This document shows positions 25,872-27,411 of a stretch of 64,000 nt of DNA, one piece after another (position 1 is the stretch's first letter; each line of letters opens with the position of its first letter). This DNA is from Candidatus Parcubacteria bacterium (lineage in GTDB: Bacteria; Patescibacteriota; Patescibacteriia; PEXW01). The DNA lies in the NCBI GenBank assembly GCA_003597955.1, contig QZJU01000006.1:1-64000 (forward strand), in the 5' to 3' direction. Position numbers and translations under genes: made by a program. The notes below the pieces were generated by a model. The model was not told the DNA's origin. It ran no database searches and saw only the letters and a list, made by a program, of their open reading frames with translations.

Positions 25872-26010
25872 ATGGCCCTATCGTCTTCCGCCAGAGGCGG
25901 ATCCGCTTTTAACGGAAACGGTTAGGCCTGCCCGCCGTACTCGCATACGCGAGGCAGGCGGGACATCGGCTTTTTCCGGCAAAGCCGGACCCGGCTTCGC
26001 CGGGCAAGCC
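25872..26010 (+). pseudogene. tRNA-Glu relic split by three hairpin insertions
   Basis: Pieces of the intact tRNA-Glu at 26266 occur here in order: ATGGCCCTATCGTCT (25872-25886), AACGG then GGTTAGG, GGACATCGGCTTTT (25961-25974) and CAAGCC (26005-26010). Between them sit GC-rich palindromes: 25887-25909 (CCGCC/GGCGG) in the D-loop, about 25927-25960 (CCTGCC/GGCAGG) and 25975-26004 (CCGGC/GCCGG and CCGGC/GCCGG) inside the anticodon loop. The 3' half with the T-arm is missing, so it cannot be a functional tRNA. Confidence 0.6.
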
Positions 26011-26026
26011 ACCATAGCGCTTTTAT

Positions 26027-26287
26027 ATGTTCTACCTTTACATCATACAAAGCTTTAAGGATAAACGGTGGTATATTGGGATAACACAGGATGTGCAAAA
26101 TCGAGTTGCTAAGCACAATAGCGGGAGCGTGCGCTCTACCAAAGCCTTCCGACCCTATAAATTAATTTATACTGAAATTTTCAAAACAAAAACTGAAGCT
26201 CGTAAAAGGGAAATTACTTTAAAGCGTTCTGGATTACTTAGGAAGCAGTTAAAAGATAAACTCATGGCCCTATCGTCTAACGGTTAG
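26027..26287 (+). CDS. GIY-YIG family endonuclease, runs into tRNA-Glu
   Basis: 86 residues, a single small GIY-YIG domain. The motif reads LYIIQ then WYIGITQDVQNRVAKHN, followed by KAFRPYKLIYTEIFKTKTEARKREITLKR, as in UPF0213-like nucleases. The last seven residues, MALSSNG, and the stop codon are encoded by the first 22 bases of the tRNA-Glu gene (26266-26340). With the relic copy of the tRNA 5' end at 25872, the gene sits between two 15-bp direct repeats of tRNA sequence. It may be a homing or repair-type nuclease; its target is unknown. Confidence 0.75.
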   Translation: MFYLYIIQSFKDKRWYIGITQDVQNRVAKHNSGSVRSTKAFRPYKLIYTEIFKTKTEARKREITLKRSGLLRKQLKDKLMALSSNG

Positions 26288-26340
26288 GACATCGGCTTTT
26301 CAAGCCGGTAATCGGGGTTCGATTCCCCGTGGGGCTACCA
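26266..26340 (+). tRNA. tRNA-Glu (UUC)
   Basis: A complete cloverleaf of 75 bases with encoded CCA. The anticodon loop UUUUCAA between UCGGC and GCCGG gives anticodon UUC. The T-arm CGGGG-TTCGATT-CCCCG is canonical. The 5' 22 bases double as the end of the GIY-YIG gene. Confidence 0.95.
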
Positions 26341-26383: not shown

Positions 26384-26440
26384 TCTCGGGGAATCGAACG
26401 GGCGAGGACGACTGCCAGTGGCAGTCGACGCCGCCTGTGC
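26384..26440. repeat. reverse T-arm fragment with hairpin
   Basis: CGGGGAATCGAAC is the reverse complement of the 3' part of the tRNA-Glu T-arm, lying on the opposite strand. It is followed by GGGCGAG and a hairpin GACTGCCA-GT-GGCAGTC. It looks like another tRNA fragment interrupted by a palindrome, as in the relic at 25872. Confidence 0.4.
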
Positions 26441-26468
26441 GCCGCAGTTTTAACGAAGGCGAATTTGC

Positions 26469-26652: not shown

Positions 26653-27411
26653 ATGAAAAAATTTTGGATAGTAAGCTCAGGCCTAATCGCGGCTGGTTTG
26701 TTGTGGTCAGCGCCACAAGCTTGGGCGATTCAGACAGATTCAGAAAATCCGCGGGTTTCCAGCGTGGCTACGTTTTTGCCTTTAGGTCGGGTTTTGGGCG
26801 AAGCCACAGTAAAGCCCACCATAAAACCCATCACCTTAACCAAGGGCGTTTATAAGTTTAAAGTTGGTACCAAAACCTATAGTCTAAAGCCTTTTAACAA
26901 CTACTCGGGTGCGGTCATGGCTCGGCAGATTAATTTTGGCACCAAGCTCGGTTCGGTTTACCTTTTTATCCCGCAAGGCGCTTACAGCAAAGCCATCATC
27001 AATTATTATTTGCCGGGCAGCTACAGCCAAAAAAGGGAGCTTTATGTTTTTGGCACCATCAGTAATTTTAAAGGCTGGAACGCCAGCATCAGCGTAGAAG
27101 CATACAGCCACAAAGTTTATATCGCCCTTGGCACCAAAGGAGCCGGAGCTAGCGCTCGGGTCATGGAAATTACCAGCAAAGGCTTGCGACAAGTGAATAA
27201 TCCAACGGTCGCCCCAACCGAGAGCAAAGGGCCGGTCTTGGTGCAGTTTCTAAAACTTTACCCCCTGCAAAATGGCCTGGTCACCCTGATCAAAGGCAAT
27301 ACCGCAACCTTGAAAGTTTGGAAGTACAATGGTGCCAAAAATCGGTACGACCAAGATCCTGATTATGATTTAAGCAAAATTAAAATTCAAAACGAAAAAA
27401 TTTCGCTTTAA
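26653..27411 (+). CDS. secreted protein of unknown function
   Basis: 252 residues with a clear Sec signal peptide (MKKFWIVSSGLIAAGLLWSAPQAWA, cleavage near residue 25). The mature part is beta-rich (KGVYKFKVGTKTYSLKPF, GSVYLFIPQGAY, RELYVFGTISNFKGW) with no Cys and no recognised domain. It is followed 11 bases later by another secreted protein, so both probably act outside the membrane. There is no hint of enzymatic motifs. Confidence 0.65.
   Translation: MKKFWIVSSGLIAAGLLWSAPQAWAIQTDSENPRVSSVATFLPLGRVLGEATVKPTIKPITLTKGVYKFKVGTKTYSLKPFNNYSGAVMARQINFGTKLGSVYLFIPQGAYSKAIINYYLPGSYSQKRELYVFGTISNFKGWNASISVEAYSHKVYIALGTKGAGASARVMEITSKGLRQVNNPTVAPTESKGPVLVQFLKLYPLQNGLVTLIKGNTATLKVWKYNGAKNRYDQDPDYDLSKIKIQNEKISL

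Follow-up and report, generated by a model that had tools for sequence, protein, structure and literature searches.

Phages, ICEs and islands that enter tRNA genes insert at the anticodon, T or D loop, carry the missing part of the gene and leave one full tRNA behind. Fungal mitochondrial double-hairpin elements and the Rickettsia RPE are short GC-rich tandem hairpins or palindromes that are also found in frame in protein genes. The REP is another palindromic small mobile element (PMC3733652). Among nucleases, SegB of phage T4 is a GIY-YIG homing nuclease that stands free within a tRNA region, and translation of T4 homing nucleases, including SegB, is repressed by hairpins that lie upstream (PMC2988022). 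In the rRNA gene insertions of the CPR, GIY-YIG genes are reported to be sparse and outside homing, and the term tRNA is absent from the text of that study (PMC11270868). Another study names Patescibacteria as a source from which other bacteria received GIY-YIG genes (PMC12455944). A full-text literature search, which excluded subscription papers and preprints, returned no published description of the combination of nuclease gene and tRNA relic reported here, although such absence is not proof.

We analysed the first 64 kb of contig C6 (the window) of a 0.99 Mb genome (G000), which is 98.5% complete and has Patescibacteria/CPR as its nearest named relatives. A first-pass annotation had proposed that a tRNA-Glu locus in the window is a palindrome-plus-nuclease element which uses a tRNA gene as its target and regenerates it. 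It had named two observations as refuting, namely relatives with the GIY-YIG gene far from any tRNA, or a relic that matches tRNA-Glu no better than shuffled sequence. Neither was made, and the proposal is supported by an occupied and an empty allele of tRNA-iMet and by recurrence at tRNA-Glu in other candidate phyla.

Results

A split tRNA-Glu copy and a GIY-YIG gene that ends in the intact tRNA-Glu

The ordered tRNA-Glu relic pieces, the palindromes, the nuclease gene and the intact tRNA are all present at 25874-26340, as first annotated (Table 1). Three inserts separate four relic blocks; what had been read as three hairpins is refined in that the D-loop and anticodon inserts are each a tandem pair of 15-nt hairpins. 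The anticodon-loop insert lies exactly where it had been placed, and the first two, previously assigned to the D-loop region, are both in the D-arm. The relic, earlier delimited as 25872-26010, ends after the anticodon stem (nt 41), where ACCA follows. The letters of the target are unbroken around each insert: GTCT^AACGG (30 nt), TTAGG^ACATC (36 nt) and CTTTT^CAAGCC (30 nt), the last of which divides the anticodon TT^C between its second and third base. The chained relic blocks score 23, compared with a best score of 7 in 60 shuffles. Shuffled sequence always scores lower, and a chance match is rejected.

Table 1 Features of the tRNA-Glu locus, with positions in the window
Feature	Position	Strand	Support
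Relic tRNA-Glu nt 1-13 (GGCCCTATCGTCT)	25874..25886	+	Identical to intact tRNA-Glu; chain vs shuffles
Double hairpin, 30 nt, in relic D-loop (TCT^AAC); second hairpin decayed	25887..25916	+	
Relic tRNA-Glu nt 14-23	25917..25926	+	Chain vs shuffles
Palindromic insert, 36 nt, 3' side of relic D-arm; 2-nt boundary ambiguity	25927..25962	+	
Relic tRNA-Glu nt 24-35	25963..25974	+	Chain vs shuffles
Double hairpin, 30 nt (15+15), anticodon-loop 35^36; length, position and covarying pairing kept in 10 tRNA-Glu elements	25975..26004	+	
Relic tRNA-Glu nt 36-41, then ACCA (26011-26014)	26005..26010	+	
GIY-YIG nuclease ORF, 86 aa; stop codon within tRNA-Glu	26027..26287	+	Pfam GIY-YIG E=2.7e-16
Intact tRNA-Glu(TTC)	26266..26340	+	ARAGORN; Rfam tRNA 63.1 bits

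The intact gene is the sole tRNA-Glu detected among the 42 distinct tRNAs readable in G000. The ORF overlaps it by 22 nt and, as had been claimed, takes its last residues and its stop codon from the tRNA: the C-terminal MALSSNG is encoded by ATG plus tRNA, and the stop TAG (26285-26287) is D-loop sequence. A 15-bp direct repeat with a spacing of 392 brackets the 392-base unit noted at first pass, and the GIY-YIG gene is the single ORF of this unit. The restored tRNA with an att-like direct repeat meets a criterion for genomic islands, but unlike a tRNA-integrating island the 392-bp unit contains no site-specific integrase gene. A group I or II intron in the tRNA gene is rejected, as an Rfam gathering search of the window returned tRNAs only. 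When an orthologous locus was sought via the flanking gene at 26653-27411, only weak matches were obtained, in two genomes of the same family. In three genomes the sequence 3' of tRNA-Glu contains a T-arm fragment in inverted orientation (CGGGGAATCGAACGGG), with a GC-rich stretch after it (window 26387-26441; L225 ~1670-1720; L232 ~2870).

One clade of small GIY-YIG genes adjoins tRNA genes

Matches to PF01541 in 38 related Patescibacteria genomes of the class were taken by score order, blind to tRNAs, and their flanks were read. A tRNA lay within 100 bp of forty of the 104 distinct small GIY-YIG genes (28 genes upstream and 12 downstream of it), compared with about 2.4% expected by random placement (p ~1e-37), and all 40 were co-oriented with the tRNA. 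Within 300 bp the count rose to 50/104, with 49 of the 50 co-oriented. The ORF ended inside the tRNA in about a dozen survey genes. On a tree of 103 proteins, including four genes first found via the hairpin search, tRNA linkage was confined to one clade (45/62 linked), compared with 2/41 in the other GIY-YIG clade, which comes from the same genomes and thus serves as an internal control for gene-neighbour artefacts. Around a quarter of the linked clade is without tRNA linkage. The starred branches Glu, Leu and Val(+Lys) span genome families, and the Met, Ser, Gln and Arg isotypes are unclustered on the tree.

Searching named species genomes with the Glu group gave 80 loci. Leaving aside the two query genomes, the six best loci, among which are a Doudnabacterium, a Parcubacterium and two Moranbacteria, each run into tRNA-Glu sequence (TTC or CTC) and are each preceded by a tRNA-Glu relic; the tRNA-Glu downstream of one of these, L232, is a broken copy too. 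Twenty-one of the 80 loci lie within 100 bp of a tRNA, every one co-oriented. Mirror-image cases, with relics of 21 and 23 nt, occur in records labelled Brocadiaceae and Smithella, where assembly contamination is not excluded. Fidelity to one target across hosts, a criterion for homing elements, is therefore fulfilled for the Glu lineage in several candidate phyla, with some isotypes unclustered. A phage search with the window protein gave one match only (38%), in an unannotated record.

Relics were detected by chaining blocks of exact identity shared by the intact tRNA and the flank beyond the nuclease gene, for linked genes from the survey and the named loci and with 60 shuffles each. A partial copy of the same tRNA lies on the far side of the nuclease gene and beats 60/60 shuffles in 44 of 68 linked genes. 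Where the tRNA is downstream (36 cases), the relic starts at tRNA nt 1 in 31 and mostly ends at nt 22-28 (the end of the D-arm) or 34-45 (the end of the anticodon arm). In the 8 cases with an upstream tRNA, the relic corresponds to the 3' part and starts at nt 12-17 or 51-60. These ends at loops and arm boundaries imply that the element joins there, carrying whichever part leaves one complete tRNA. The homology limit is nt 1 in most occupied sites; at Ala in L172 and Lys in L169 it lies ~20 nt further upstream.

Four of the 13 GIY-YIG matches in G000 are small genes at tRNAs, namely Glu, Leu(tag), Ser(cga) and Val(tac). The Leu(tag) element has a 5' fragment of tRNA-Leu with palindromes splitting the D-loop, and the Ser(cga) ORF likewise ends within the tRNA. 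The Val(tac) element is a mirror image, running from intact tRNA through nuclease and palindromes to the 3' part of tRNA-Val.

Occupied and empty alleles of tRNA-iMet

The first-pass annotation had suggested comparing relatives with and without the unit. Because no tRNA-Glu was found in the congener G001 (assembly 77% complete), and because the tRNA-Glu of G002, which is without the element, has a different context, this comparison was made at tRNA-iMet, which is occupied in G001 and empty in G000. In G001 the promoter is followed by iMet nt 1-18, a 16-nt palindrome (TCCCGCGGCCGCGGGA), nt 26-36 running into an ATG, the ORF and a complete iMet. The iMet gene of G000 is uninterrupted, with promoter region and downstream sequence as in G001. 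The G001 element has a repeat spacing of 287 nt, and its ORF stops at a TAG in the tRNA D-loop, as in the window. A further homing-element criterion, occupied and empty alleles of one site in relatives, is thus fulfilled at tRNA-iMet. Whether G001 gained the element or G000 lost it cannot be polarised.

The next tRNA at the G001 iMet locus is elongator tRNA-Met nt 1-36, 97.5% identical over 40 nt to the intact G000 gene; it is broken at the anticodon loop and then followed by a different tRNA-Met. As far as the sequence tells, an older gene is split here and a newer one is in place. The tRNA-Trp, Thr and Cys genes of G001 are each nested between the halves of an older copy. Intact Ala, Thr, Trp and Cys tRNAs were also seen lying within the anticodon loop of an earlier copy of their own isotype, with inverted repeats on either side (L005 2270-2450; L307; L311, in G001).

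An intact predicted active site and the host-gene alternative

The catalytic residues Y5, Y16, G18, R26, H30, E62 and K66 are all present in the window protein. Across the tRNA-linked proteins, Y5, Y16, G18, H30, E62 and K66 occur in 47/47 and R26 in 46/47, and the catalytic Tyr, Tyr, Arg and Glu required of the GIY-YIG superfamily (PF01541) are in place. Between the G000 and G003 copies pN is 0.09 and pS 0.82. Sequence comparison of this kind establishes that the predicted active site is intact and under purifying selection. The closest solved structures are the UPF0213 proteins 1zg2 and 1ywl (E 7e-18 and 6e-17), then SLX1 (7wme). SLX1 is a structure-specific nuclease, and a hairpin or cruciform substrate is therefore plausible for GIY-YIG proteins of the window type.

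Selection and these structural neighbours would equally suit a resident host gene, that is, a structure-specific (SLX1/UPF0213-like) housekeeping enzyme in tRNA operons that processes cruciforms from palindromes piling up around tRNA genes, the relics being by-products of slippage or duplication. Vertical persistence, seen for Ser(cga) in G000 and G001 and for Leu(tag) in G000 and G003 (dS saturated), agrees with it. So does the distribution of the 30-nt hairpins, found in 0/8 genomes with at most two GIY-YIG matches compared with 13/30 others (p 0.03). A housekeeping role is hard to reconcile, however, with the patchy occurrence of the gene, the many tRNA isotypes it adjoins, lineages that stay with one isotype across candidate phyla, an iMet site that is occupied in one member of the genus and empty in another, and relic ends placed non-randomly at loops and arm boundaries. 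We regard it as unlikely for the elements as a whole, and note that the vertically persisting copies, Ser(cga) and Leu(tag), also fit a resident host gene.

Hairpin inserts are paired but free in sequence

Ten Glu elements carry exactly 30 nt at 35^36, comprising two 15-nt hairpins with 6-bp stems and 3-nt loops, and relatives of the window protein at tRNA-Glu share this module in several candidate phyla. The sequences vary, from TCCGGCAAAGCCGGA... to TCAATCTTCGATTGA..., so that length and pairing are conserved and sequence is not. In a MAFFT alignment of the 30-mers with flanks, 99.3% of cells are paired and 10 of 15 pairs have double-sided changes, and 0/500 shuffles were as good. Across all elements, 34 of 38 measured inserts fold at z<-2, and none of the 38 lies elsewhere than behind tRNA nt 9-25 (D-arm) or 31-39 (anticodon loop). 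Base pairs in the inserts were 404 Watson-Crick and 9 G-T; such a scarcity of G-T suggests that pairing is a property of the DNA and not of an RNA fold. We infer, and the data suggest no more, that insert pairing is maintained in DNA, either by cruciform selection or by palindrome correction in replication.

The same counts weigh on the possibility that the tRNA half and hairpin form a functional leader of the nuclease mRNA, a regulator or decoy exerting, for example, translation control or acting as a tRNA-mimic antitoxin, with a nuclease that acts on tRNA. Its position 2-40 nt 5' of the ATG in most elements, the conserved length and pairing of the hairpin and the translational repression known for T4 homing nucleases, including SegB (PMC2988022), would all favour such a leader. 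Evolving RNA helices, however, are not expected to be so poor in G-T pairs, the same hairpins occur in nuclease-free relics and in reading frames, their size and position differ among lineages, and in mirror-image elements the relic lies 3' of the gene. A leader function of this kind is accordingly given little credence.

Strict GC-type double hairpins were found in 19 of 57 class genomes and in 0 reversed controls, located in copies of tRNA and 5S genes as well as within reading frames. G000 has 18 hairpins of the form YCCGSC-NNN-GSCGGR, compared with 1 in the reversed control; by their coordinates, 11 of the 18 are at tRNA loci (<~220 bp from a tRNA or within a tRNA relic). They sit in the loops of broken copies adjoining intact genes, for example the T-loop of two tRNA-Val copies and the anticodon loop of a tRNA-Tyr copy. 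At one locus (L049, G000:C6:82500-86000; 1183-1602 and 1837-1890), tRNA-Val and tRNA-Phe each adjoin a broken copy whose T-loop is exactly the site of a palindrome, with no nuclease gene present, and both tRNA-Val copies hold an identical 30-nt double hairpin. A 5S rRNA relic adjoining the intact 5S has a 30-nt double hairpin inside (L132/L063, G000:C2 ~2225-2330), and L123 is a second such 5S relic.

In uvrB a 30-nt double hairpin lies in frame and adds 10 residues (L064 1501-1530; G000:C2:25383-25412), and hairpins within long ORFs of several other class genomes resemble the Rickettsia palindromic elements. In another genome a tRNA-Met T-arm is present three times in tandem, the T-loop of each copy holding the same 30-nt double hairpin (L098 1456-1621; G053:C3). 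Separately, leaders and trailers of many intact tRNAs (Phe, Ile, Pro, Tyr and Ala; L049, L057, L005) form long extensions of the acceptor stem, and the tRNA-Tyr and tRNA-Pro genes of this set are without an encoded CCA where the extension starts.

Hairpins without a nuclease, in tRNA-Val, tRNA-Tyr and 5S relics and in frame in uvrB, imply that nuclease and hairpins may move separately. The mobile entity could then be the hairpins themselves, as non-autonomous 30-nt double hairpins (REP-, RPE- or double-hairpin-element-like) mobilised by some other enzyme, for instance a Y1 (RAYT-type) transposase, with the GIY-YIG genes as incidental neighbours using tRNA promoters. Their occurrence in tRNA, 5S and protein genes with no nuclease nearby and the three Y1_Tnp matches in G000 speak for this. 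Against it, no Y1_Tnp match was found in four hairpin-bearing genomes (G008, G017, G029 and G035), and in these Y1/RAYT is rejected as a necessary hairpin mover. Hairpin counts, moreover, correlate with the number of GIY-YIG matches (rho 0.41, p 0.01) but show no clear relation to that of Y1 transposase (rho 0.24, p 0.14), although this is correlation only, and neither the complete co-orientation within 100 bp nor a relic of the same tRNA is expected of incidental neighbours. We consider this origin improbable; the best reading is that the hairpins are an integral, DNA-level part of the element.

Discussion

We interpret the unit as a minimal, tRNA-targeted, homing-like mobile element of ~0.3-0.4 kb that regenerates its target, and put the probability of this reading at roughly 0.6. 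The architecture, its recurrence, the isotype-specific lineages, the occupied and empty allele pair, the hairpin module and the predicted active site, intact and under selection, are established by the genome comparisons. Cutting of the tRNA gene or its cruciform by the nuclease, with movement as its result, is inferred, and neither cleavage nor movement was observed.

The element would combine a small GIY-YIG gene of the tRNA-dedicated clade with a copy of whatever part its target tRNA lacks. Entry into a tRNA gene may be at a loop, in the window the anticodon loop at 35^36, after the putative nuclease has cut the tRNA gene or a cruciform of one tRNA arm. Repair of the break from a donor that is flanked by the tRNA itself would copy the element in, which amounts to homing without an intron. 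The 5' part of the old gene would remain as the relic, with hairpins in its loops, and the tRNA segment of the element would join the remaining part to restore a complete tRNA on the other side. The hairpins may disable the leftover copy as a target or may be the structure recognised by a structure-specific nuclease, and non-autonomous hairpins could be moved in trans. Since the element brings its own tRNA segment, insertion into an essential single-copy tRNA gene would be survivable. A weakness of the homing reading is that the regenerated tRNA sequence equals the uninvaded target, so that self-cutting must somehow be avoided.

A broader proposal, which we hold tentatively and would not yet back over its negation, is a structure-guided class of elements. 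Here a GIY-YIG protein would recognise or cut stem-loops, as cruciforms, in genes for tRNA and other structured RNAs, palindromes would enter the loops exactly and the duplicate would restore the gene. Autonomous (nuclease-bearing), non-autonomous (30-nt hairpin only) and tRNA-carrying forms, the last with a new tRNA nested in an old anticodon loop, would together drive the turnover of tRNA genes in Patescibacteria.

If the homing-like reading is true, one of the commonest small nuclease genes of Patescibacteria is a parasite of tRNA genes that repairs its own damage. This would explain many hairpin-riddled tRNA fragments and the turnover of essential single-copy tRNA genes in this group. With a very small candidate nuclease (~90 aa) and distinct target lineages, the invasion of essential genes by homing elements becomes directly testable.

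Like integrative elements, the unit has a tRNA gene as its site, inserts at a loop and restores a full tRNA. It differs in that it is without an integrase, measures ~0.3-0.4 kb with one ORF, usually carries the 5' and not the 3' part and has hairpins in the leftover copy. Double-hairpin, RPE and REP elements are similarly short and GC-rich, with tandem hairpins or palindromes and in-frame insertions. The two tandem hairpins seen here measure 15 nt each, and common descent with the fungal elements is not claimed. The hairpins described here are fixed at 15+15 nt, free in sequence, located in tRNA and 5S loops of duplicates and built into a nuclease element, and no sequence tag shared with known palindromic mobile elements was found. 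UPF0213 (YhbQ-type) proteins and SLX1 are closest by sequence among solved structures, and tRNA linkage is not described for them in the literature found. The GIY-YIG/LAGLIDADG insertions in CPR rRNA genes share the bacterial radiation, the stem-loops of structured RNA genes and the presence of GIY-YIG, but they lie in rRNA ISs, with GIY-YIG reported as sparse and non-homing (PMC11270868).

The free-standing GIY-YIG homing endonucleases of T-even phages, especially SegB, are likewise small genes at a tRNA locus without an intron, for which break-repair homing is proposed, and SegB has a hairpin just upstream of its ORF (PMC2988022). Compared with SegB, the nuclease gene here either connects directly to tRNA nt 1 or runs into the tRNA, and the element has a split duplicate of the same tRNA with palindromes in its loops. 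The element is found in bacterial chromosomes at many isotypes and encodes a protein of only 80-95 aa without a separate DNA-binding domain, for which cutting is inferred only. The arrangement is best compared to a homing-like, target-restoring element, with a real possibility that insertion guided by structure sets it apart as a separate kind.
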